Source: Corallococcus carmarthensis
GTDB taxonomy: Bacteria; Myxococcota; Myxococcia; Myxococcales; Myxococcaceae
DNA: 62,845 bases
Direction of reading: 5' to 3'
NCBI RefSeq assembly: GCF_003611695.1
Contig: NZ_RAWE01000031.1
Location: forward strand, 1 to 62,845
A model generated the notes under the pieces. That model saw only the letters and a list, made by a program, of their open reading frames with translations. It was not told the DNA's origin and did no database searches. The position numbers and the translations under genes were made by a program. Position 1 is the stretch's first letter. Each line of letters starts with the position of its first letter. Positions 43,077 through 60,535 of the stretch are shown piece after piece.

Positions 43077-45140
43077 TCAGATGTTGATCCGCGAGCTGAC
43101 CGTCCGGACGTCCAGGCCCAGTGCCGCGAACTCCGCGGCGTGGGTGCGGAGCAGCTCCAGCAGCCGGGGATGCAGGTCTTCCTCTTCGTTGGACAGGATG
43201 AATCCGTAGTTCGTCTTGGAAAGCATCCAGGAGATCCACAGCATCTCCGTTGCCTCATCCGGCGTGGGCGCGACGTCCAGGTCCTCTTCCGTCGACAGCG
43301 CGCCTCCCTTGCCCCAACGCAATCCCAGACACGAGTACAGGACTTCGCCCGCGTCCTCCCACTGGAGGTTGTTCGCCCAGGCGTGACGGAACGTCGCGAA
43401 GAAGATGACGTAGCGGCAGAGGCTCTTCAGCGCCTCCACCTCACCGGCCTGCGGCCTCTCCGTCCGCGTCACCGCGCTCACGGCCTTGGGGGGCGGCTCC
43501 GCGACCTTCGCGCCCAGGTCCATGCGCTCCGAGCGCACGAACCACAGCGCTTCCTTCCCCGGCACCTTCGCTCTCAGATAGCGACACACGAACGCTGGCG
43601 CTGAATGCGCGACCAGGTCGTCCGAGAACCGGTGCACCTCCTGCCATTGCGCTTCAATCTCCGCGCCGTGCTCCGCGAAGAACGCGTCGATGTGCTCCCC
43701 GAGCAGCTTCCAGAACAACTGCCCTGCCTGCGCGTAGCGGTGTCCCTCGCAGACCGGTGTCGCGGGCGCGAAGCCCTTCCAGTCGTAGCTGCCCAGCAGG
43801 TGCTCCAGCCGCTGGTTGATGCCCCCTTCCGTCAACGCGCTGGCCCGAGAGATGTATCCGGTGGGTCCCACCAGGAATCCGTTGGCGGAGTGGTTGATCA
43901 ACACCACCTCCCGCAGGTGCGGCATGAGCAACCAACGCAAGGGATTGCGCCGCAGGTTCCGGTGCGCGGCGATAGCGTACTGCTCGACGTTGAAGTGGCA
44001 CTGCCCCAGGTGGTTGCCCAGCTCCACGTCCAGCGTCGCGCTCACCCGCGCCATCCGCTTCGCCGCCTCCCACGCCGCGCCATCCGCGGGCGTGTACGTC
44101 CGCCGCGTCACCGGTGAGCCGGGCGCCGTCGCTCCGGGCTCCCGCATCCCCAGGATGATCCGCTGGGGCATCAGCTTGCCGTCCACCAGCCGCAGCCGGA
44201 GGTCCACGTCCGGTAGGCAGTGCACGCCGTCCTGCTCATAGGCATTCCAGGGCAGATACAGCCGGAAGGCCTGCGCATCCCCGGGCACCTCCGGGTCGCG
44301 GTCCAGGATGCTGGAGAACATCCCGTTGAGCAGCCGTTCCCCGAACCACGCGTCACTCCGCGTGGAGCCCGGCGACTCGCGCTCCATCCGGACCGTCATC
44401 GCCTCCGGGTAGTCCGCCTGGATCTTCGCGAGGCTCGGCGTCTGCCCCATCCGGATCTGCAGTTGGTGCTGCCGCTTCACCAGCTCGATGGGCGCGACCG
44501 CCTTGAGCATCGCCAGCGCGCGTCCTGGCGCATACGCCGTGGGCGGAGTGCCTTCCTCCACCACCAGCAGGCGCGCCAGCGGCGTTGACGGGTCGTATTC
44601 CCAGTACGGCAGCCGGAGCGTCCCGAAGTCGTACTCCAGCCCTGTGTGATCATCCGGCCCCCGCTCCGAACCGATGCGCTTCCACGTCTCCACCACCCGG
44701 CCGTCCTGGCGGAACGTGTGCTGCGGTTCGAAGAAGCGCAGCTCCAGGTCCGGCAGGTCGCCTTCACCCGCGTCCGCGGGGTCGTAGCGGATGACGAACG
44801 ACCCATCCGCGCCCGTGAAGGTCTCGCCCAGGAAGTCGTCCGGCGTGCCGAAGTCCCGGTCCCACAGCTCGACCTTGAGGTGATGCAGGGGGATGGGGCC
44901 TTGCGGTCCGTCCTGCTCGAACATCAGCCGGCCGGTGACGACGGCGGGGAGGGTCGAAGGATCCCTTGGCGCTCGCGGTGCACGCACGCGCTGGATCAGG
45001 TTGCGGCTGACCGCCAGCCGCTCCTTCAATCCCAGCCCCGCGTACCACCGGGCCAGCTCCTCCGCCTCCAGGAGCGGCGGCTCCTCGGCCTTCGAAGAGA
45101 ACCCCAACGAGGTCAACAATCGGCGCCAGGCGGTGCGCAT
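43077..45140 (-). CDS. Lipoxygenase-family protein with transthyretin-like N-domain (LOX1)
   Basis: Lipoxygenases add O2 to polyunsaturated fatty acids. All five iron-ligand positions are visible: H377 and H382 in HLGQCH, H586 and N590 in FRHAWAN, and the C-terminal isoleucine I687 (SSRINI). The usual helix segment is recognisable as NPLRWLLMPHLREVVLIN (family: HPxYxLLxPHxRxTxxIN). Residues ~65-140 form a beta-sandwich (VVTGRLMFEQDG, HLKVELWDRDFG, DDFLGETFTGADGSFVI) of the transthyretin/carboxypeptidase-regulatory type rather than a PLAT domain. There is no signal peptide. The sequence is far from plant and animal enzymes, so the substrate is open. It is divergent from LOX2 and P450. Confidence 0.85.
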   Translation of the reverse strand: MRTAWRRLLTSLGFSSKAEEPPLLEAEELARWYAGLGLKERLAVSRNLIQRVRAPRAPRDPSTLPAVVTGRLMFEQDGPQGPIPLHHLKVELWDRDFGTPDDFLGETFTGADGSFVIRYDPADAGEGDLPDLELRFFEPQHTFRQDGRVVETWKRIGSERGPDDHTGLEYDFGTLRLPYWEYDPSTPLARLLVVEEGTPPTAYAPGRALAMLKAVAPIELVKRQHQLQIRMGQTPSLAKIQADYPEAMTVRMERESPGSTRSDAWFGERLLNGMFSSILDRDPEVPGDAQAFRLYLPWNAYEQDGVHCLPDVDLRLRLVDGKLMPQRIILGMREPGATAPGSPVTRRTYTPADGAAWEAAKRMARVSATLDVELGNHLGQCHFNVEQYAIAAHRNLRRNPLRWLLMPHLREVVLINHSANGFLVGPTGYISRASALTEGGINQRLEHLLGSYDWKGFAPATPVCEGHRYAQAGQLFWKLLGEHIDAFFAEHGAEIEAQWQEVHRFSDDLVAHSAPAFVCRYLRAKVPGKEALWFVRSERMDLGAKVAEPPPKAVSAVTRTERPQAGEVEALKSLCRYVIFFATFRHAWANNLQWEDAGEVLYSCLGLRWGKGGALSTEEDLDVAPTPDEATEMLWISWMLSKTNYGFILSNEEEDLHPRLLELLRTHAAEFAALGLDVRTVSSRINI

Positions 45141-45450
45141 CAGCTCCGCGCCTCAATCCCATCCGTGGTCGGGGACGACCCGCGATAGGTCCTGCTGGAA
45201 CCACGAACACAAAGGGCGCGACGGGAAGCGGGCTTCATCGCGCGGGAAGGTACCACGCCCCGGGTCGAGCGCCGCCCCGCGCCCCTGCGGCAATCCCATA
45301 CCCGGGCGCTCGCCCCGGAGGGCGACCCGCTATCGATTTCAGTGCAGGCCCCGAGCGAACGGGCCGTGATCAGCCTCCACGCAGGAGCCTGTCTTGTCCG
45401 GCCCGCTTTCGCCCGCGTACTTTCTGGTTCACGTGCTAGTGGAGGAATCC
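45141..45450. promoter_or_regulatory. Divergent control region between two lipoxygenase genes
   Basis: These 310 bases separate the starts of LOX1 (minus) and LOX2 (plus). They must hold two promoters. A GGAGG (45440-45444) gives a good ribosome site for LOX2. I see GC-rich imperfect dyads near 45295-45330 (CCCGGGCGC with GGGCGA-type text), but no confident -35/-10 pair and no coding frame. Confidence 0.5.
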
Positions 45451-47481
45451 ATGACTGTCGATTACACGCTGACGATTCGCACGAGTTCGAAGCTCGGCGC
45501 CGGAACGAACGCGGCCATCTCCGTGGTCCTGGTGGGAACGAAGGGCGAAAGCCAACCGCAGGCCCTGGACAAGCGCTTCCACAACGACTTCGAGGCCGGC
45601 GCGGTGGACGCCTACTCCGTCAGGTCCGAGGACCTGGGGGACCTGCTCCTGCTCCGGTTCTCCAACGCGGGGGGCGGCGTCGGGGGCGACTGGCTCCTCG
45701 ACTCGGTGACCGTCACCGCGCCGGGGAAGCACTGGTTCTTCCCGTACTACCGCTGGGTCCTGGCCAAGGCCTCCGCCGAGGTCCTCGAGGGCACCGCCCG
45801 GCTGCCCCAGCAGGTCCAGCACGAGCGGGAACGGGCCGCCCGGAACGACCTGCTCCAGGCCCGCCAGCGCATGTATCCCTGGCGCCCCGCGGAGGCCACC
45901 GCCGGGCTGCCCGGCGCGCTCGACATCTCGGAGGAGCGCCCGCTGCCGAAGGACGAGCTCTACCGGGGGCTCGTGGAGGGCAGCTACGAGGTCGTCATCG
46001 CGAAGACGCTCGCGGCCATCAAGCTGCACATGCCCGTGTTGAGCAAGGCGTGGAACGGCCTCGTGGACGTCTTCGACTTCTTCAAGGGCATCGAGCTGCC
46101 GACGATCGCCAGGCGCTGGCAGGACGACATCGAGTTCGCCCGGCAGGCCGTGCAGGGCATCAGCCCCGTCCACATCCAGTCCATCACCGCGCTGCCGGAA
46201 GGAATGCCCCTCCAGGACTCCGAGCTGCGGGGCCTGTTGTCTCCCGGCACGACGCTCCCGCAGGCGCTGGCCGGCAAGCGTGTCTTCCTGCTCGACTTCG
46301 AGATCCTGGGCGACGTGCCCATGTTCAAGAAGGCCGACAAGGAGGGCGTCGAGGAGCGCCGGTGGGCGCCCGCGTCCCGGTGCCTGCTGTACCTGGATGA
46401 CACGCAGCAGCTGCGGCCCATCGCCATCCAGCTCGGCCGCGACCCGGCGCTGGATCCCGTGTTCACGCCCAATGACAGCCAGCACGACTGGCTGGCCGCG
46501 AAGATCTACCTCCGGTGCAGCGAGGGCAACACGCACCAGATGGTGGGCCACGCGCTCCGGACCCACTTCGTCGCCGAGCCGTTCGTCATGGCGACGATGC
46601 GCAACCTCCCGGACCCGCACCCCGTCTACAAGCTGCTGCGCCGCCACTTCCGCTACACGCTCGCCATCAACGACGGTGCACGGAAGGGGCTGCTCGCCGC
46701 GGGTGGCGTGTTCGACGACCTCATCGCCACGGGCGGCCCCGACCAGGGCCACGTGTTCCTGGGCAAGAAGGGGTACAAGGCCTGGACGCTCGCGGACAAC
46801 AAGCCGCGCCCGGACATCGAGCGCCGTGGCGTGCTCGACCCGGCGGTGCTCCCGCACTACCCCTACCGCGATGACTCGCTGCTCCTGTGGGAGGCCCTGG
46901 AGGAGTACGTCGGTGGGGTGCTCGGGCACTTCTACGCGTCCGACGCGGAGCTGGTGCGCGACACCGACATGCAGCGCTGGTGGAAGGACCTCGTCGACCA
47001 CGGCCTGCCCGTGGAGAAGCTGCCGTGCGCGGAGCTGAAGCGCGTCTCCGACCTCACCGACATCCTCACCACCGTGCTCTTCACGGTCAGCGTCCAGCAC
47101 GCGGCGGTCAACTACCTCCAGTACGAACACTACGCCTTCGTGCCCAACGCGCCCCTGTGCATGCGCCAGGCGCCGCCGCGCCAAAAGGGCGTCCTGGGGG
47201 AGAAGGACATCGACGCGATGATTCCTTCCAAGACGCAGATGCTCTGGCAGGTGGCGGTGGGCCGCGCGCTGTCCAGCTTCGGGGACGACGAGGAGTACCT
47301 GCTCCACGAGGGCGGCTGGCGCGAGGACTACTTCCAGGAGCCGGAGCTCATCGCCATCCGCGACCGCTTCCATTCCCGCCTCCGCGCGCAGAGCGAGGCC
47401 GTGAAGGCGCGCAACGCGAAGATCGCGGTGCCCTACACCGTCCTGCAGGCCGACCGCATCCCCTGCGGCATCACCGTCTAG
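45451..47481 (+). CDS. Lipoxygenase with PLAT-like N-domain (LOX2)
   Basis: Dioxygenase that forms fatty-acid hydroperoxides. The catalytic domain is canonical: H362 and H367 in THQMVGH, followed by FVAEPFVMATMRNLPDPHPV and KLLRRHFRYTLAIN, then H550 and N554 in VQHAAVNYLQY. The last residue is Val (V676) instead of the usual Ile; a C-terminal Val is known from manganese lipoxygenases. Residues ~1-95 look like a PLAT beta-sandwich (YTLTIRTSSKLGAGTNAAI, then SVTVTAPGKHWFFPYYRW). The start at 45451 follows GGAGG. It precedes the P450 by 21 nt, so both are likely one transcript. Lipoxygenases are known from Myxococcus xanthus. Confidence 0.95.
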   Translation: MTVDYTLTIRTSSKLGAGTNAAISVVLVGTKGESQPQALDKRFHNDFEAGAVDAYSVRSEDLGDLLLLRFSNAGGGVGGDWLLDSVTVTAPGKHWFFPYYRWVLAKASAEVLEGTARLPQQVQHERERAARNDLLQARQRMYPWRPAEATAGLPGALDISEERPLPKDELYRGLVEGSYEVVIAKTLAAIKLHMPVLSKAWNGLVDVFDFFKGIELPTIARRWQDDIEFARQAVQGISPVHIQSITALPEGMPLQDSELRGLLSPGTTLPQALAGKRVFLLDFEILGDVPMFKKADKEGVEERRWAPASRCLLYLDDTQQLRPIAIQLGRDPALDPVFTPNDSQHDWLAAKIYLRCSEGNTHQMVGHALRTHFVAEPFVMATMRNLPDPHPVYKLLRRHFRYTLAINDGARKGLLAAGGVFDDLIATGGPDQGHVFLGKKGYKAWTLADNKPRPDIERRGVLDPAVLPHYPYRDDSLLLWEALEEYVGGVLGHFYASDAELVRDTDMQRWWKDLVDHGLPVEKLPCAELKRVSDLTDILTTVLFTVSVQHAAVNYLQYEHYAFVPNAPLCMRQAPPRQKGVLGEKDIDAMIPSKTQMLWQVAVGRALSSFGDDEEYLLHEGGWREDYFQEPELIAIRDRFHSRLRAQSEAVKARNAKIAVPYTVLQADRIPCGITV

Positions 47482-47502
47482 CGCCGTCAGGAGACCCTTC
47501 CC

Positions 47503-48921
47503 GTGCCCAACGCTCTTTCTCGCGGCATCTTCAACCTGTTCTTCGGCGCGAAGCGAAAGCCGTTCGCGTCGCTGCCCGGCCCCCAGCCGGGGATCCTCGG
47601 CACCGCTGGGGACTTCCTGGGGGCTTCCCCCTGGGACGTCTGCGCGCGCTACGGCCGCGAGTACGGCGGCGTCACCCTCATCTGGATGGGCCCCAACCCG
47701 GGGCTGGTGCTCAACGACCCGGCGCTCATCGCGGAGGTCTACGAGTCCCCCCGCCGGATGGAGTTCGAGAAGGGGAACATCAGCGAGCAGATCCGCCCCT
47801 CGACGACGGACGACACGTCCTTCACGGCGGAGCTGCGAGGAGACTGGGTCCAGAAGCGCGACATGGAGCCCACGGCCCGGCCATGGGCCGCGGAGTCGCT
47901 GGCGGAAATGGTGGGTCCCATGCAAGCGGCCATCTCCGAATCCGTGGACGCGCTCCTGAAGCGGGACGCCATCGACCTCGCGCCGGATCTGCGCCGGCTC
48001 ACGTTCGATGCGTTCTCGGTCGCGCTGGTGAGCGAGAAGCTGCCGGATCAGGTGTTCGAGGACTTCATGCTGCTGGCGAAGGCGGCGGATGCGCGCATCC
48101 AGGCCAAGCTGCCGCTGAAGTTCGTCAAGCCGCCCAAGGGCTTCGAGGAGGCGAAGGCGCGCTTCTACGGGCACTTCGTGGACCGCATCCGCGAGGCGCG
48201 CAAGCGGCAGGGCTCCCGGGCCGTGGACGTCATGTCGCGCTACCTGGAGGAGCAGCCGGGCATTGACGACCAGGTGCTGGCGCACATGCTGGGCGGCACG
48301 TACTTCGGCGGGGCGTTCTCCTCCAGCGTCACGCTGGTGGGGGCGTTCCACCAGCTCAACAAGTATCCCCAGGCCGCCGAGCGCCTCGCCGCCGAGGCAG
48401 CCTCGCTGGTGGCGGACGGGCCGCTGACCTTCGGGAAGCTGGAGGGCGCGAAGTGGACGGAGGCGGTGGCGTTCGAGTCGCTGCGCATCCTGCCGGCGGT
48501 CCGGGTGATGACGCGCACGCCGTCAAAAGACGCGCGGCTGGCGGGCGTCACGTTGCCGGCGGGTTCGATGATCATGATCACGAACCAGCACCTGCACCGG
48601 GACCCGGCCCACTGGCCGGATCCCGACACGTTCAAGCCGGAGCGCTGGCTGGATGGGGGCACGACGCGGGATCCACTGGGGAGCGGCCACTTCTTCCCGT
48701 TCGGCCGGGGACCGCGCGCGTGCGTGGGCGCGGACTTCGCGATGACGTTCCTGAAGACGGCGCTCGCGACGATTGCCTCCCGGGTGAAGGTCCACGTCGA
48801 TTCCACGGAACCCTTCGAGGAGGGCTTCTTCTTCGGCGTGGTGCTGCCCAAGGGTGTCACCGGGAAGCTCGTCGCGCGGACGGCCCCGTCATCCGAGGAC
48901 GTACGAGTCCGGAGCGCCTAG
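47503..48921 (+). CDS. Cytochrome P450 linked to lipoxygenase
   Basis: Heme-thiolate protein of 472 residues starting at a GTG. The K-helix ExxR is E325-SL-R328; the heme loop is FPFGRGPRACVG with C407; PERW precedes it at the meander. The I-helix reads GGTYFGGAFSSSVT (264-277): where most P450s have A/G-G-x-D/E-T, this one has G269-G-A-F272-S273, so the acid is replaced by Phe and Thr by Ser. P450s that rearrange peroxides instead of activating O2 (plant CYP74, prostacyclin and thromboxane synthases) share such loss. With a lipoxygenase gene 21 nt upstream, a hydroperoxide isomerase, dehydratase or lyase role is likely. Confidence 0.93.
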   Translation: MPNALSRGIFNLFFGAKRKPFASLPGPQPGILGTAGDFLGASPWDVCARYGREYGGVTLIWMGPNPGLVLNDPALIAEVYESPRRMEFEKGNISEQIRPSTTDDTSFTAELRGDWVQKRDMEPTARPWAAESLAEMVGPMQAAISESVDALLKRDAIDLAPDLRRLTFDAFSVALVSEKLPDQVFEDFMLLAKAADARIQAKLPLKFVKPPKGFEEAKARFYGHFVDRIREARKRQGSRAVDVMSRYLEEQPGIDDQVLAHMLGGTYFGGAFSSSVTLVGAFHQLNKYPQAAERLAAEAASLVADGPLTFGKLEGAKWTEAVAFESLRILPAVRVMTRTPSKDARLAGVTLPAGSMIMITNQHLHRDPAHWPDPDTFKPERWLDGGTTRDPLGSGHFFPFGRGPRACVGADFAMTFLKTALATIASRVKVHVDSTEPFEEGFFFGVVLPKGVTGKLVARTAPSSEDVRVRSA

Positions 48922-51507: not shown

Positions 51508-52253
51508 TTATGCGGCGTCGTGAAAGATGATTCCCGCCGTGTGTCTTTGACCGGAGCGCACGCGGCTGACGCCGTGCCGGAGGTTGACGCGGTAGGTGCC
51601 GCGCGTGCCCTGGACGGGACGGTGGTGCACCGCGAAGACGACCGCGTCTCCCTGGCGCAGGGGGACGACCTCCGCGCGTGACTGCATCCGGGGACGCTGC
51701 TCCGTCAGCACGAACTCGCCGCCCGTGAAGTCCCGTCCGGGTTCGGAGAGGAGCACGGCCACCTGGAGCGGGAAGACGTGCTCGCCATACAGGTCCTGGT
51801 GCAGGCAGTTGTAGTCGTCCACGCCGTAGCGCAGGAGCAGGGGAGTGGGCCGCACCTGTCCGGCTTCATGGCAGCGCGCGAGGAAGTCCGCGTGCGCGTC
51901 CGGAAACCGCACGTCGATTCCCATCGCTGTGTTCCAGCGGTTCGCGATGGGCGCGAGGCACGGGTAGAGCGCCGTGCGCAACTCCGTCACGGCCTCCGGC
52001 AGCGGATGGTCGAAGTATTTGTATTCACCCCGTCCGAACCCGTGCCGCGCCATCACCACGCGGCTGCGGAAGGCGTCCTCCACGTCGTAGAGCCGCGCCA
52101 ATGCCTCGCACTCGCCGGGCGTGAGCAGGTGCTCCAGTACGGCGCACCCTCGCGCATCCAGCTCCCGGCCCGTTCCCTCCCAGTCCACCGCACGCACCCG
52201 CGCCGGGACTCCCGCCACGGCACGGACCGCGAGCGCACCGGCACGTCGTGCGC

Positions 52254-52257
<4 letters not shown>
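51508..52257 (-). CDS. 2OG-Fe(II) oxygenase coupled to ada
   Basis: A 249-residue dioxygenase. The iron pair is H153-Q-D155 in CLHQDLYGEHVFPLQ; the distal part is VVFAVHHRPVQGTRG and YRVNLRHGVSRV with the arginine expected to bind 2-oxoglutarate. Its ATG overlaps the ada stop (ATGA), so it is made with Ada. Similar oxygenases sit beside ada in other proteobacteria, which suggests a part in alkylation damage response, distinct from AlkB by sequence. The direct substrate is unknown. Confidence 0.85.
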
Positions 52258-53381
<1,124 letters not shown>

Positions 53382-53625
53382 GCACTGCCTCCCTTCGAGA
53401 GCGGTCTCCATGACCACGACGGGAAACCTAACCCCCGGAGTCCAGACCAGCACTCCGCGCCTTGCGGTCGAATTCGGACCGGCATGGAGCATGGCGTCAT
53501 GGCGTGACGCGGCCCGGTCTTGCTGGGAGTGAACCGCCCGCCGGGAGCGTGCAATGCATGGCGGCACGCCCGCGTAGGTCGTGACAGGATGCCGCACCCC
53601 AGTTCCTCCTTTCCATGAGCAAGCC

Positions 53626-56600
53626 ATGTCCCACCTGCGTCTGATGTGGAAGCGCTCCCGTCTGCTCTGGCCCACGCTGGCCGTCTGCGCCGCGGCTCCC
53701 GCCTGGGCCGCCCCCGCGCCTGTCGCCGTCCCCAACGCCGGCTTTGAAACCGCCGCCACCACCGGCCTGCCCCAGGGCTGGACGGCCTCGGGCCAAGGCA
53801 AGGTGTCCGCCCGCACCGACGCGAAGGCGGAGGGCAGCCGCAGCCTCGCCATCGAAAGCCCCCAGGGCGGCGCGGAGACCACCGTCGAGTCCGAAGCCGT
53901 GAAGCTCCAGGTGGGCCGCCTCTACCGGCTCTCCGCCTGGGTCCGCACCAAGGGCGTGCAGGCGGACGCGCAGGCCCGCTATCCCACGGCGCTGGGCGCA
54001 TGTCTGTCCATGCAGAGCTTCCCCTTCACCAACTGCTCGCCGCCGCAGGGCGCGGACGCCAGCGGCCGGGTGCAGGTGCTGTTCTTCGCCACCCAGTCCA
54101 ATGACCGCGTGCGCGCGCACCTGGGCCACAACGGCAAGGCCACCGGCACCGCGTGGTTCGACGACGTGAAGCTGGAGGAGGTGGACGACGTCACCGCGTA
54201 CGTCCCCATGGAGAGCGTGCGCTGGGCCGGCAAGGGCTTCCGCTACGACGACGGTGGCTGGGTGTACGTGCACATCGAGGGCGAGCCCTACGAGCGCGGC
54301 CGGCAATACGGCGAGCTCGTCTCGCAGGAGATCGTCCGCTACATCGAGAAGCTGGGCGTCCAGAAGGACAAGGCGGACGCCGCGAAGGGCTGGGCGCAGG
54401 TGCGCCTGCTCGCGGACTCGCTGTTCCTGCGCCGCTTCGACGCCGAGTACCTGGAGGAGATGAAGGGCATCGCCGACGGCGCCAACGTGGGCGGCGCGAA
54501 GTTCAAGGGCCCGGACGGCAAGGAGCGCGACCTGGACGTGCTGGACGTCGTCGCGATCAACTCCGCCGTGGACCTGGGCCAGCTGGACGACGCCAACCGC
54601 GTCACCGCGTCCCCGCTCACCGGCCGCACCTTCCTCAAGGGCGAGGACGAGAACGGCCGCGCGGGGGAGGGCGACCACTGCTCGTCGTTCGTGGCCACCA
54701 AGTCCGCGACGAAGGACGGCCGCGTCGTCATGGGGCAGATCTTCATGTGGAACGGCTACACCGGCGTCCACTGGGACGTGGTGCTGGACGTGCAGCCCAC
54801 CAAGGGCCACCGCTTCGTGATGCAGACCTTCCCGGGCGGCATCCACAGCGGCTCCGACTGGATGCTCAACGACGCGGGCATCGTCATCGGTGAGACGACC
54901 GTGGGCCAGACGCCCTTCAACATCGACGGCACCCCGCAGAGCAACCGCATCCGCAAGGCCGTGCAGTACGCGAACTCCATCGACGACGTGGAGCGCATCC
55001 TCAAGGACCGCAACAACGGCCTCTACACCAACGACTGGACGCTGGCGGATACCAAGACGGATGAAGGCGCGTGCCTGCTGCTGGGCACCGCGAAGACGCG
55101 CCTGTGGCGCACCGGCAGCAAGGGCAAGACGGCGGACACGCCCGGAAACCTCAAGGACTTCATCTGGGCCAACAACAACAACCGCGACCCGGAGGTGCGC
55201 AAGGAGTCCGTGCCCAACGCGAGCAACGCCCCGGTGGACCTGGCCTTCAACACCTGGAACCGCGACATCGCCTTCCAGGAGGCCTACGCGAAGTACGGCA
55301 AGGGCGGCTTCGACGTGGACAGCGCCACGCGGATGATGGCGTCCAGCCCCATCAACCGCCCCCACGCGTGTGACGGGAAGATCACCACGTCGGAGATGAC
55401 GGAGAAGCTGATGTTCCTCGCGCACTACGGCAAGACGACGCTGCGCGAGAAGATGGTGGGCAGCCGCTGGATCCCGGACCTGCCCGGCGCCACGCCGCAC
55501 CTGTCCCTGGGCTACACCGCCTTCAGCCCCATCTACGTGGCGGACAAGCTGAAGGCCGCCAAGGCGAAGCAGAAGCCGGAGGCCAAGGAGGACAAGCCCA
55601 AGCGCGACTTCGCCCGCGTGAAGGACGCGCTGTCCTTCGACGAGAAGAAGCTCTGGGCCAACACGGTGTTCCCCGCGACGGACGCGGACAACTGGTTCGG
55701 CAGCGGGTCCGCCGCGTACTGGACCCAGCTCAAGGACCTGCCGGAAGGGGATGACCTCTCCAAGGCCTTCGACACCCAGCGCGACGCGCTCGCGGAGCTC
55801 AACGCCCGCTACCTGTACGTCACGGCCCGCGAGGGCGACGTGGTGCCCAACGCCGCGCGCACGGACTACGGCCGCTACGGCACGTACGCGGTGCCGCGCA
55901 TCAAGGGCACATACCTGCTGCACCAGCTGCGGCTGACCCTGGGCAACGCGAAGTTCGCCAAGGTGATGGACGCGGTGCACGCGAAGTTCGCGAACAAGAA
56001 GCTCACCACGCAGGACTTCATCCGCACCGCCTCGGAGGCCGCGGGACAGGACGTGGGCCCGTGGGTGAAGCAGTGGGTGGAGCGTGGCGGGCTGCCCGCG
56101 CCGCGCCTCACCACGCGGGCCCAGAAGGCGAAGGAGGGCTACGAGGTCACGCTGAAGGTGGACCAGTCCGGGACACCCTGGCGCTTCGCCACGCTGGTGG
56201 AGGTGCAGACGGAGAAGGGCGCCGTGCTGGAGCGTGTGGAGGTGAAGGGCTCAAGCGACACCTTCACCGTGAAGGTCGCGGACCGGCCGGTGCGCGTGGT
56301 GTTCAACGTGGGCAACGACATCCCCGTGGCCCGCGAGCGCTACCAGACCCTGTCCAACACGCTGGACGACTGGGAGAAGCTCCTCTTCGTCTACGGGTCC
56401 GCGCGCCAGGTGGAGTCCATGCGCACGCTGGCGACGAACTACCGCGAGCAGCTGGCGGACGCGTCTCCGGAGCGGCTGGCTCCGCTCAAGCCGGACGCGG
56501 AGGTGACGGACGCGGAGCTGGCGGACCGCGACCTCGTCGTCTTCGGCGGTCTGGAGGACAACGGGCTGCTGGCGCGGCTCGCGGCGGAGAAGAAGCTGCC

Positions 56601-57005: not shown

Positions 57006-57066
57006 TTGACTCCTGGGCGGAGAAGGTTAAATCTCCCTTCAGAGAATGAATCGAGATTCAAAATCT
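57006..57066 (+). promoter_or_regulatory. Promoter and possible TetR operator of the efflux operon
   Basis: TTGACT at 57006 and TTAAAT at 57027, 15 nt apart, form a plausible promoter in an unusually AT-rich stretch. Half-sites AATCTC (57030-57035) and GAGATT (57053-57058) face each other, and AGATT-CAA-AATCT (57054-57066) is a second short dyad running over the start codon. Such dyads suit autoregulation by the TetR protein encoded just downstream. Confidence 0.45.
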
Positions 57067-57666
57067 GAGGCGCCCGTCAAACGGCTGCGCTCGCGCATGA
57101 AGGAAGCCACCGCTGACGCCATCCTGTCGGCGGCCGCGGAGGTGTTCGCCCGGGACGGGCTGCACGCCGCGAAGATGGAGTCCATCGCTGAGCAGGCGGG
57201 CGTGTCGGTGGGGACGCTCTACAACCACTTCACCGACCGCGCGGCGCTGCTGGACGCGCTGCGCGCGAAGCGCCGGCAGGTGATGCTGGACCGGCTGGAC
57301 GCGGCCCTGGCCCCCGTGGCGGAGCGGCCCGCGCGTGAACAGCTGCGCGCCTTCGTGACGGCGGTGTTCGCCCACGTGGCGGAGCGCGACGCGTTCGTGC
57401 GGGTGCTGGTGCAGCTGCCGGAGGACCCCGTGCGCAAGAGCCGCGTGCTGGCGGAGCTCACCCGGCGCCTGGCGGTCATCATCGACCGGGGCATCCAGGC
57501 CGGTGAGGTCCGCGCGGAGGGCCGCGCGCTCTATCCGTCGCTGCTGATGGGAATGGTGCGCGGCGCATTGGACCGCCTGCGCGAGGACGACGCCGCGAAC
57601 CTTCCGGCCGCTGTCTGGGCGGAGGAGATCCTCCGCGTCTTCCTGAAGGGAATCGAGGCCGACTGA
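57046..57666 (+). CDS. TetR-family regulator of efflux operon
   Basis: A 206-residue repressor-type protein. The DNA-binding part is ILSAAAEVFARDGLHAAKME, SIAEQAGVSVGTLYNHFTDR; the C-terminal ligand domain is divergent, as usual. The chosen ATG at 57046 has only a weak ribosome site; a start at 57097 (MKEATADAILS) is possible and would leave the dyad outside the gene. Its stop is 1 nt from the MFS start, so it most likely controls the transporter genes and itself. Confidence 0.9.
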   Translation: MNRDSKSEAPVKRLRSRMKEATADAILSAAAEVFARDGLHAAKMESIAEQAGVSVGTLYNHFTDRAALLDALRAKRRQVMLDRLDAALAPVAERPAREQLRAFVTAVFAHVAERDAFVRVLVQLPEDPVRKSRVLAELTRRLAVIIDRGIQAGEVRAEGRALYPSLLMGMVRGALDRLREDDAANLPAAVWAEEILRVFLKGIEAD

Positions 57667-57667
57667 C

Positions 57668-59299
57668 ATGGCGACAGCCGTCGCGACACCGGAGGTCCTG
57701 GCGCCAGCGGTGCCCAAGGCCCCCGTCAACAAGTGGCTCGTCACGCTGTCGGTGACGTTCGGCACGCTGATGGGCGCCATCGACTCGTCCATCGTGAGCG
57801 TGGCGCTGCCGCAGATCCGCGGTGCCGTGGGTGCCACGGTGCAGGAGATCACCTGGGCCACCACCGGCTTCGTCATCGCCACGGTGATGGTGATGCCGCT
57901 CACCGGCTTCCTGGGCCGCATGTTCGGCCAGAAGCGCGTCTACATGGCGTGCCTGGTGCTCTTCGTGGCGGGCTCGTTCCTGTGCGGCCTCGCGTGGAAC
58001 CTGCCCACGCTGGTGCTCTTCCGCTTCCTCCAGGGCCTGGGAGCGGGCGCGCTTCAGCCCACCGAGCAGGCCATCCTCCGGCAGACGTTCCCGCCGAAAG
58101 AACAGGGCACCGCGATGGCCATCTTCGGAATGGCCGTGATGGTGGGCCCGGCCATTGGCCCCACGCTGGGCGGCTACATCGTGGACAACTGGCACTGGTC
58201 CTGGATCTTCTTCATCAACGTGCCGGTGGGCATCCTGGGCTTCTTCATGGTGGCCCGCTTCGTCCAGGAGGACGAACAGCTGCGCACCACCGCGCGCCTG
58301 GAGGCCGAGCGCCAGCGCAAGCACATGGACTGGTCCGGCATCACGCTGCTCTGCATGGGCCTGGCCACGCTCCAGTACTTCCTGGAGGAGGGACAGGCGG
58401 ATGACTGGTTCGAGTCTCCCATCATCATCCTCTGCGCGCTCCTCTCCGCGACGTGCCTCATCGCCTTCGTCATCCGCGAGCTCACGGCGGTGGCTCCCGC
58501 GGTGAACCTGCGGCTGTTCAAGGACCCGGTGTTCGCGTCCGGCACGCTCCTGGGCGCGCTGGTGTTCGCGGTGCTCATGGCCAGCATGTTCCTGCTGCCG
58601 GTGTTCATGCAGGAGCTCCTGGGCTTCACCGCGACGCAGTCCGGCTTGTCGCTGATGCCGCGCACGCTGGTGATGATGGTGATGATGCCCATCGTCGGGC
58701 GGCTGTACGGCAAGGTGCCGGCGCGGGTGCTGGTGGGGGCGGGCATCGTGTTCGCGGGCTTTGGCGCCTTCGAGATGAGCCACTTCTCGCTCGCCACGGG
58801 CTCCAGCAACATCATCGCGGCCATCGCGCTGCAGGGCGTGGGCTTCAGCCTGATGTTCGTGCCGCTCAGCGCCACGGCGCTCGGCAACATCCCGCGCGAG
58901 CGGATGGCGGACGCGACGGGCCTCAACTCCCTGCTGCGCCAGATTGGCGGGTCCGTGGGCCTGGCCATCTTCACCACGCTCCTGTCGCGCTACACCGTGC
59001 TGTCCAAGGCCTCCATCGCGTCGCACCTGAACCCGGAGCGGTGGGAGGTGGCCAGCCGCATGGCCTCCACCCAGCGGGGGCTCATGCAGCACGGCCTGGA
59101 CGCCGCGAGCGCCAGCATGGCCAGCCTCCAGATGATGGTGGGCAACGTGTCGCGGCAGGCCATGGTGCTCGCGTTCGACAAGCTCTTCGTCCTGGCATCG
59201 CTGATGTTCGTGGTGGTGCTGCCGCTCATCTACTTCCTCAAGGACCCCCCGAGCGTCGGGGGCTCCCACGAGAAACCCCACATCGACGTGGAGATTTAA
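57668..59299 (+). CDS. DHA2-type MFS multidrug transporter (EmrB-like)
   Basis: Inner-membrane drug:proton antiporter with about 14 helices. Typical motifs: FGTLMGAIDSSIVSVALPQI in helix 1, WATTGFVIATVMVMPLTGFL, GRMFGQKRVYM (motif A), FRFLQGLGAGALQP and AMVGPAIGPTLGGYIVDN-like text (motif C). The length of 543 fits EmrB. It lies between a TetR gene and a HlyD-type adaptor; here the transporter precedes the adaptor, the reverse of emrAB. No TolC-like outer-membrane gene is in the window. Confidence 0.94.
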   Translation: MATAVATPEVLAPAVPKAPVNKWLVTLSVTFGTLMGAIDSSIVSVALPQIRGAVGATVQEITWATTGFVIATVMVMPLTGFLGRMFGQKRVYMACLVLFVAGSFLCGLAWNLPTLVLFRFLQGLGAGALQPTEQAILRQTFPPKEQGTAMAIFGMAVMVGPAIGPTLGGYIVDNWHWSWIFFINVPVGILGFFMVARFVQEDEQLRTTARLEAERQRKHMDWSGITLLCMGLATLQYFLEEGQADDWFESPIIILCALLSATCLIAFVIRELTAVAPAVNLRLFKDPVFASGTLLGALVFAVLMASMFLLPVFMQELLGFTATQSGLSLMPRTLVMMVMMPIVGRLYGKVPARVLVGAGIVFAGFGAFEMSHFSLATGSSNIIAAIALQGVGFSLMFVPLSATALGNIPRERMADATGLNSLLRQIGGSVGLAIFTTLLSRYTVLSKASIASHLNPERWEVASRMASTQRGLMQHGLDAASASMASLQMMVGNVSRQAMVLAFDKLFVLASLMFVVVLPLIYFLKDPPSVGGSHEKPHIDVEI

Positions 59300-59302
59300 G
59301 AC

Positions 59303-60535
59303 ATGGCAACGACAACGACTGCTCCCCAACTCGTCCCCGAAGCGGCGCCCGCGCCCGCCGAAGCGGCGCAGGCGAAGCGCGGCAAGCGGGGCTTCCTCAT
59401 CCTCGGCGGCATCGTGGCCGCCATCGTGCTGGCCATTGGCGGCTTCAAGGTCATCACGGCCGGGCAGGAGACCACCGACGACGCGCAGGTGGAGGCGGAC
59501 GTGGTGCCCCTGGCCGCGCGCGTGTCCGGCCCCGTGGTGAAGGTGGCCGTGCTGGACAACGCCACCGTGCACCAGGGCGACGTGCTCCTGCAGATCGACT
59601 CGCGTCCGTACGAGGCGCGCGTGAAGCAGGCGGAGGCCGAGCTGGAGTCCGCGCGCGCCCAGGCGGCCGCGGCGGACGCGCAGGCCACGGTGGCGGAGGC
59701 CGGCGCGAAGGGCGGCCTGTCCAGCGCGAAGGCGCTCGTGTCCACGAGCACGTCCGCGGTCAGCAGCGCCCAGGCGCAGGTGGCGGCGGCCCGCGCGGCG
59801 CTGACCCGCGCGGAGGCCCAGGCCCGCAAGGCCACGCTGGACCTGGATCGCGCCAAGAGCCTGCGCCAGCAGAACGTGGTGGCGCAGAGCGCGCTGGATG
59901 ATGCCCAGACGGGCAGCGAGACGGCGCAGGCCGCGCTCGAAGGGGCTCGCGCGCAGCTCGCCCTGGCGGAAGAGGGCCGGCGCACCGCGGAGAGCAAGGT
60001 CGCGGAGGCCAAGGGCCAGCTCGACGTGAGCGCGCCCATCGACGAGAAGATCGCCGCGGCCCAGGCCAACGCGTCGCTGGCGCACGCCCGGGTGAAGGGC
60101 GCGGAGGCCGCGTTGGAGCAGGCGAAGCTCCAGCTGGAGGACACGCGCATCGTCGCTCCGGCGGACGGCCAGGTGTCCAAGCTGTCCGTGCACGCGGGCC
60201 AGCTGCTCACCCCGGGCCAGGCGGTGGCGGAGCTGGTGCCGCTCACCACCTACGTGGTGGCCAACTTCAAGGAGACCCAGGTGGGCCACATGCAGCCCGG
60301 CCAGCGCGTGGAGGTGGAGCTGGACGCCTTCTCCGGTGAGAAGCTGGAGGGCAAGGTGGAGAGCCTGTCCGGAGGCACCGGTTCCCGCTTCTCCCTGCTG
60401 CCGCCCGACAACGCGTCCGGCAACTTCGTGAAGGTGGTGCAGCGCGTGCCCGTGCGCATCACCTGGCTGCACCCGCCCGAAGGCCTGGCCCTGCGCGCCG
60501 GCCTCTCCGCCGCCGTGACGGTGCACACGAAGTAG
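59303..60535 (+). CDS. HlyD/EmrA-family membrane fusion protein
   Basis: Periplasmic adaptor that links an MFS pump to an outer-membrane channel. One membrane helix (GFLILGGIVAAIVLAIGGF) is followed by the lipoyl-like half (VVPLAARVSGPVVKVAVLDN), a long Ala-rich coiled coil from ~100 to ~270, the second lipoyl half (DTRIVAPADGQVSKLSVHAG) and a beta barrel (PGQRVEVELDAFSGEKLEG). At 410 residues it is of normal size. It starts 3 nt after the MFS gene and is followed by a strong terminator. Confidence 0.94.
   Translation: MATTTTAPQLVPEAAPAPAEAAQAKRGKRGFLILGGIVAAIVLAIGGFKVITAGQETTDDAQVEADVVPLAARVSGPVVKVAVLDNATVHQGDVLLQIDSRPYEARVKQAEAELESARAQAAAADAQATVAEAGAKGGLSSAKALVSTSTSAVSSAQAQVAAARAALTRAEAQARKATLDLDRAKSLRQQNVVAQSALDDAQTGSETAQAALEGARAQLALAEEGRRTAESKVAEAKGQLDVSAPIDEKIAAAQANASLAHARVKGAEAALEQAKLQLEDTRIVAPADGQVSKLSVHAGQLLTPGQAVAELVPLTTYVVANFKETQVGHMQPGQRVEVELDAFSGEKLEGKVESLSGGTGSRFSLLPPDNASGNFVKVVQRVPVRITWLHPPEGLALRAGLSAAVTVHTK

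Follow-up and report, generated by a model that had tools for sequence, protein, structure and literature searches.

Organization of the locus

This report concerns a locus for two lipoxygenases and a cytochrome P450 on contig NZ_RAWE01000031.1 of the myxobacterium Corallococcus carmarthensis (GCF_003611695.1), of which positions 1 to 62,845 of the forward strand were analysed (hereafter the window, meaning this whole stretch of 62,845 nucleotides (nt)), and focuses on the conserved pairing of one lipoxygenase, LOX2, with the P450. The initial annotation had described two lipoxygenases back to back, with a P450 gene 21 nt behind the second, and this arrangement is confirmed by open reading frames (ORFs) and Pfam matches once the start of LOX2 is corrected. 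The features are as follows (aa, amino acids).

43077..45140, minus strand: LOX1, lipoxygenase without a PLAT domain, 687 aa (ORF list, Pfam, structure-sequence alignment)
45141..45450, no strand: intergenic region separating the divergent genes LOX1 and LOX2, 310 nt (ORF coordinates)
45451..47481, plus strand: LOX2, PLAT plus lipoxygenase, 676 aa, orthologue of MF-LOX1 (Pfam, orthology)
45463..45768, plus strand: PLAT/LH2 domain of LOX2 (Pfam)
46114..47421, plus strand: match of the lipoxygenase catalytic domain in LOX2 (profile search)
47503..48921, plus strand: P450, 472 aa, GTG start (ORF list, Pfam)
48307..48324, plus strand: P450 I-helix GGAFSS, residues 269-274, with Phe272 for the usual Asp/Glu (alignment)
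48700..48723, plus strand: canonical haem loop of the P450, FGRGPRAC (residues 400-407), with cysteine ligand C407 (alignment)

The listed ORF of LOX2 (45394-47481, plus strand) opens with TTG at 45394. The plausible true start is the ATG at 45451, which is preceded by GGAGGAATCC and yields 676 aa, as in the characterized orthologue. The gap of 21 nt separates the LOX2 stop (47481) from the GTG of the P450 gene (47503), which is itself preceded by GGAG.

Relatives and known chemistry of the lipoxygenases

The two lipoxygenases differ in domain content: LOX2 matches the Pfam profiles PLAT (3.4e-20) and Lipoxygenase (7.9e-74), and LOX1 matches Lipoxygenase (2.8e-8) without PLAT. Both exceed the PF00305 cut-off of 23.6 bits (LOX2 with 249.8 bits, LOX1 with 33.2 bits) and they are the two matches to this profile in the window's genome, compared with zero in 14 control genomes. 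Residues 67-687 of LOX1 align with the lipoxygenase 5ek8 (1.1e-140), and, over almost its entire length, LOX2 aligns with arachidonate 5-lipoxygenase (3.6e-111) as well as with the lipoxygenase part of an allene oxide synthase-lipoxygenase (1.4e-110). The LOX2 residues H367, H372, H550 and N554, which by 5-lipoxygenase numbering are presumably the iron ligands, are invariant across 16 aligned sequences. At the C-terminus, LOX2 carries Val instead of the lipoxygenase-type Ile, while LOX1 carries Ile.

LOX2 is 75% identical to MF-LOX1 of Myxococcus fulvus, both proteins measuring 676 aa, and belongs with it as an orthologue; the cloned MF-LOX1 gene (NZ_FOIB01000010, complement 205294-207324) corresponds to the LOX2 match G098:C10:205297-207324 plus the stop codon. 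LOX1 is likely the orthologue of the M. xanthus 12-lipoxygenase MXAN_1745, and from the order of accessions and a published identity of 86%, MXAN_1744 would be the orthologue of LOX2 and MXAN_1743 the P450. One LOX1 match (G057:C12:3132-5183) contains one TAG stop.

The chemistry of these relatives is described in two reports. MF-LOX1 is an arachidonic acid 12S-lipoxygenase; for its M. xanthus relative, 86% identical to it, a preference for linoleic acid as substrate and for a pH of around 3 is reported (PMC6612559). MXAN_1745 and MXAN_1744 form 12- and 11-hydroperoxyeicosatetraenoic acid (12-HpETE and 11-HpETE), respectively, and M. xanthus fed with arachidonic acid produces hepoxilins, trioxilins and prostaglandins (PMC5760719). 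The reports for M. xanthus and M. fulvus disagree on 11- versus 12-specificity (PMC5760719; PMC6612559). In agreement with the initial annotation, activity towards polyunsaturated fatty acids has been found for orthologues of the lipoxygenases at this locus (PMC6612559; PMC5760719). With MF-LOX1 and MXAN_1744/1745 published, the lipoxygenases of the locus are already characterized and not new. The available text of PMC6612559 contains no mention of a P450, and the eight-gene list in the available part of PMC5760719 includes no gene adjoining MXAN_1744/1745. The thromboxane-synthase candidates MXAN_0683 and MXAN_2304 were reported there as inactive (PMC5760719); by number they are not neighbours of MXAN_1744/1745, so that neither would be the lipoxygenase-linked P450, and the present locus may bear on that result.

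Conservation of the LOX2-P450 pair

One set of 145 genomes of the order was searched with the P450, LOX2 and LOX1 proteins in turn. The P450 was found in 47 genomes, 45 of which hold the family proper and two (G073 and G074) a distant branch; these two are counted within the 47 P450 genomes and outside the 45 genomes with the pair. LOX2 or weaker lipoxygenase matches occurred in 52 genomes and LOX1 in 44. A same-strand P450 lies directly 3' of 46 of the 47 LOX2 genes, which are distributed over 46 genomes and include one shortened copy (G066), the exception being G075. The spacing between match ends amounts to 11-54 nt, mostly 20-21 nt, and to 134 nt for the degenerate G066 copy, whose P450 match begins at residue 39. 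This copy forms a second LOX2-P450 locus in Corallococcus sp. CA053C (L036 / L083, G066:C776:20295-22528), where LOX2 retains just its 266 C-terminal residues and the open frame of the P450 begins at about residue 40, and is probably decaying.

In six comparisons per gene within Corallococcus, the ratio of nonsynonymous to synonymous substitution rates (dN/dS) ranges from 0.19 to 0.36 for the P450 and from 0.18 to 0.29 for LOX2, hence both genes are under purifying selection. Because 46 of 47 LOX2 genes adjoin a P450 and dN/dS lies between 0.18 and 0.36, the adjacency is not due to chance, and it is very likely that LOX2 and the P450 share a pathway, whatever its chemistry, as the initial annotation had read from the tight pair. 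Looked for in the 145 genomes of the order, the adjacency was found well beyond this strain, to which the gene order is thus not confined.

The position of LOX1 is far less constant. In 39 cases the two lipoxygenase genes diverge, with 77-310 nt between them; LOX1 lies 3' of the P450 in G072, and is distant or on a separate contig in G045, G048, G055 and G056; the protein search of the 145 genomes did not find it in G046 and G075, nor beside the shortened LOX2 of G066. Because of this variation, the pair that is held together consists of LOX2 and the P450, not of two lipoxygenases. A three-gene unit of LOX1, LOX2 and P450 was considered and rejected, and the role of LOX1 as an integral part, as first annotated, cannot be upheld. 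In an alignment of the LOX1-LOX2 promoter region from seven Corallococcus-type loci, nothing interpretable emerged beyond a short conserved stretch near the LOX2 ribosome site; the stretch CGTG(C/G)TAGTGG, at window positions 45432-45442 just 5' of the LOX2 ATG, is kept in all seven.

G048 has a P450 copy with no LOX2 beside it, and G075 a LOX2 that lacks the P450, as would be expected if the two genes had been co-inherited in a stable region and acted on unrelated substrates. In the rearranged loci that were read, however, LOX2 and P450 stay joined while LOX1 and other neighbours change, and P450s of the clade's second branch again lie near a lipoxygenase, which makes an incidental adjacency very improbable. 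The second P450 of G048 (L078:6742-8130, 59%), with no LOX2 nearby, is located behind sensor kinase and APH-type kinase genes and has the I-helix SGVFSS.

A P450-family profile, applied at E <= 1e-60 to 195 genomes of the phylum, matched 47 of them, all within the window's taxonomic family, a restriction based on these 195 genomes and one scan of close relatives (17 loci). Phyla beyond Myxococcota were sampled through plasmids only, whose P450 matches are 26-29% identical to the P450 (best 15 of 79 records). Literature searches in open-licence PMC found no report of a bacterial lipoxygenase-P450 pair. The LOX2-P450 pairing is thus real, conserved and previously unreported in the searched literature, its new part being the P450 partner.

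Outside this pair, association of the two enzyme classes is infrequent. In G073 and G074, the second-branch P450 lies about 5 kilobases (kb) from a lipoxygenase about 30% identical to LOX2, and this association, found post hoc in two genomes of one genus, counts as one event. Of the 21 non-LOX2 lipoxygenase loci, whose flanks were generally about 8 kb long but were shortened by contig ends at L146, L152 and L154, 3 have a P450 within the flanks, namely these two (L072 and L073, with P450s of the same acid-less clade) and L148, with an ordinary AGHETT P450. In the last (L148:3941-10468), which belongs to G075, the genome with the unpaired LOX2, the AGHETT P450 follows the other lipoxygenase about 1.8 kb 3' on the same strand. 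Four of seven plasmid records with a lipoxygenase were opened and had no annotated P450 within 5 kb (PLSDB annotation is incomplete). A general habit of P450s lying near lipoxygenases was accordingly rejected.

A third gene joins the pair in part of the family. Of the 45 genomes that have the pair, 23 (in genera g19, g5 and g8; g19 is the genus group that holds the Myxococcus and Pyxidicoccus records) carry, directly behind the P450, a gene of about 280 codons from the fatty-acid-desaturase family (PF00487). The start of this gene lies 4 nt within the P450 gene in 22 of the 23 loci with both ends read, L024 being the exception; G102, where the contig ends, was not judged. For Corallococcus, the desaturase was rejected as a fixed third gene, since its relative (72-75%) sits elsewhere in the genome, e.g., with 74% at G000:C466.

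I-helix and fold of the P450

The P450 matches p450 (PF00067) at 1.2e-47 with 163.2 bits and carries both the ExxR and the FxxGxRxC motif, with E325, R328 and C407 invariant in 25 aligned sequences. Its I-helix is unusual. The family mostly reads (F/Y)GG(A/V)FSSS, and the acid position of the monooxygenase motif (A/G)Gx(D/E)T is occupied by Phe in 45 of 45 distinct orthologues and by Thr in both sequences of the second branch (32-33% identical), the motif being present in none of the 47 distinct family sequences. The latter were kept from 74 loci yielding one and were read to the first stop (432-481 aa); some P450 match rows are marked with one internal TGA stop.

Among other P450s, the acid is retained by 7 of 8 in the window's genome, in 22 of 24 aligned from four related genomes (30 loci of 50 match rows gave 28 ORFs, from which one without the I-helix and three of the LOX2-linked family were removed) and in all four plasmid P450s placed in the tree, for which five plasmid loci had been fetched and one, the unannotated L164, was left out. 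In this tree, the P450 family and its second branch split from all other P450s with a support of 1.00, and an acid-less AGHGPP type falls outside the LOX2-linked clade. Other acid-less P450s read AGHGPP (L097 and L197) or AGGHTTT (L187).

In ordinary P450s, the I-helix acid serves the activation of O2, and its replacement by Phe throughout the family fits a P450 that uses hydroperoxides. We lean, by a small measure, towards LOX2 and the P450 acting as one unit, in which the P450 would use the LOX2 hydroperoxide without reduced nicotinamide adenine dinucleotide phosphate (NADPH). Several points weigh against this proposal, including the unpaired genes of G048 and G075. The I-helix Ser stands for Thr, so that, unlike in CYP74, the alcohol half of the acid-alcohol pair is kept. 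In sequence, the P450s of known structure that come nearest are monooxygenases, CYP3A5 among them (best 60 of 277 PDB sequences). In fold, an AlphaFold model is closest to CYP97 and to the fatty-acid hydroxylase BM3 (CYP102), with Z of 31-34; its mean predicted local distance difference test (pLDDT) is 78.7, with values under 50 in a portion of the haem loop. Furthermore, the sterol hydroxylases 7lyx and 3sn5 (CYP8B1 and CYP7A1), known here from the match alone, match the I-helix segment of prostacyclin synthase; atypical I-helices thus probably occur in true monooxygenases too, and the unusual I-helix is no proof of hydroperoxide chemistry. The desaturase also occurs where the pair is absent (e.g., G043, G047, G076 and G078) and off-locus in Corallococcus, and is therefore a helper at most. 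No redox-partner domain was found among the ten window proteins scanned with Pfam; this speaks for a hydroperoxide-using P450, but weakly, as bacterial P450s often lack adjacent redox partners. Finally, E. coli with a single M. xanthus 12- or 11-lipoxygenase converts 12- or 11-HpETE to hepoxilins (PMC5760719), so a P450 is not required for epoxyalcohols.

The nearest sequences and folds, the retained Ser and the two sterol hydroxylases would suit a CYP102/CYP4-like monooxygenase that depends on O2 and NADPH, hydroxylates the LOX2 product or the fatty acid on which LOX2 acts and draws on redox partners encoded elsewhere, a reading further favoured by the canonical ExxR motif and haem loop. Against such an enzyme stands the replacement of the acid in 47 of 47 distinct family sequences, compared with 2 of 24 and 1 of 8 among other P450s, and we regard it as unlikely.

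Comparison with known oxylipin enzymes

Among the closest analogues of a hydroperoxide-using LOX2-P450 unit is the plant cascade from lipoxygenase to CYP74 (allene oxide synthase, hydroperoxide lyase, divinyl ether synthase and epoxyalcohol synthase), in which a P450 likewise follows a lipoxygenase and has an acid-less I-helix with GG at the same site. The I-helix of CYP74A, CFNTFGGVKILFP in 3dam and CFNTWGGMKILFP in 2rch, shows GG followed by a non-acid residue, with Asn and without Ser. The Asn three residues before GG, which has a catalytic role in CYP74, is present in 2rch and 3dam and in 0 of 47 Myxococcaceae sequences. The CYP74 haem loop is modified, with an insertion, whereas that of the Myxococcaceae P450 is canonical (FPFGRGPRxC), with FPFG-x-G-x-R-x-C spacing in the family. 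The Myxococcaceae enzyme also differs in keeping Ser, in its listed folds (BM3/CYP97) and in the neighbouring position of its gene and that of the lipoxygenase. In a review, the I-helix region of CYP74 is equated with the oxygen-binding domain of monooxygenases (PMC10813956).

An identity as CYP74 was rejected on account of the canonical haem loop and the missing Asn, and one as a CYP152 fatty-acid peroxygenase because the NCBIfam CypC equivalog scores 14.9 bits against a cut-off of 600 bits. CYP74, membership of which would call for an identity of at least 40%, is not among the best 60 of 277 PDB sequence matches nor among the structure matches listed, which is no exclusion. With hydroperoxide P450s the enzyme has one mechanistic trait in common, but by the features compared it is not a CYP74. 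Of the special hydroperoxide P450 that the initial annotation envisaged, the expected loss of the I-helix acid is thus retained, whereas assignment to CYP74 is not; if the P450 uses hydroperoxides, this would therefore represent a separate invention.

Other systems resemble the locus in part. MF-LOX1 and, by the mapping given above, MXAN_1744/MXAN_1745 are orthologues of its lipoxygenases. The allene oxide synthase-lipoxygenase fusion of coral is likewise a two-step unit, with whose lipoxygenase part LOX2 aligns; the partner in coral is catalase-related, whereas in Myxococcaceae it is a P450 encoded by a separate gene. CYP102 (P450 BM3) is among the closest predicted folds, from which the present P450 differs by the absence of a fused reductase (472 aa), the loss of the I-helix acid and an identity of about 20%. 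The Methylobacterium hydroperoxide lyase is not known to have a lipoxygenase partner. This enzyme of the CYP74 clan is a bacterial oxylipin-type P450 (PMC10813956).

A possible pathway and its significance

In the proposed sequence of events, LOX2 would generate a fatty-acid hydroperoxide, as MF-LOX1 does by 12S-lipoxygenation of arachidonic acid; in M. xanthus this would be 11-lipoxygenation, provided that MXAN_1744 corresponds to LOX2. Given the spacing of 11-54 nt, the P450 gene is most likely co-transcribed with LOX2, and its product would take this hydroperoxide both as substrate and as oxygen source, requiring neither O2 nor a reductase, and would rearrange it to an epoxyalcohol, a ketol/allene oxide or an aldehyde. 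The epoxyalcohol is a guess, made because the CYP74 review calls its formation the basic reaction (PMC10813956). LOX1 would be an accessory lipoxygenase, often sharing the promoter region and dispensable for the LOX2-P450 unit. The fatty acids may stem from the cell's own lipids, via the desaturase in g19 and two other genera, or from prey.

Another explanation is a role in disposal rather than signalling, in which LOX2 and the P450 would oxidise and degrade unsaturated prey lipids or scavenge toxic hydroperoxides, and which is compatible with either chemistry. Myxobacteria are predators, and mobilisation of nutrients is among the roles that the authors of the MF-LOX1 study consider (PMC6612559, section 3.3). 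Neither LOX1 nor LOX2 has an evident signal peptide, as judged by eye, and the presence of a desaturase-family gene next to the P450 in many species argues for the use of the cell's own fatty acids; substrate preference gives no clear hint, as MF-LOX1 is described as an arachidonic acid 12S-lipoxygenase and the M. xanthus orthologue is reported to prefer linoleic acid (PMC6612559). Taken together, we consider a disposal role possible, though on balance doubtful.

The initial annotation had spoken of a complete route to oxidised lipid signals, which is overstated. A wider proposal can be put forward tentatively, with a chance slightly short of even: that the P450 represents a new hydroperoxide-using family, convergent with plant CYP74 and animal prostacyclin and thromboxane synthases, and that together with an animal-like PLAT lipoxygenase it forms the first bacterial lipoxygenase-P450 operon, a self-contained oxylipin pathway with its own desaturase in many species. 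A conserved P450 partner offers a concrete second step to bacterial lipoxygenases, whose purpose is unclear. If the P450 works without NADPH, oxylipin P450 chemistry would have arisen once more in bacteria, and the genetically tractable M. xanthus could then serve as a model for the roles of oxylipins in a social, predatory bacterium.

Other genes in the window

Elsewhere in the window, on the minus strand (51508-53882), an Oxygenase-NA (PF09859) gene adjoins a gene for an Ada-type methyltransferase/regulator, and the two look like a DNA alkylation repair pair. On the plus strand (57046-60535), genes for a TetR regulator, a major facilitator superfamily (MFS) transporter of 543 aa and an HlyD-type fusion protein lie in a row and look like an efflux operon.

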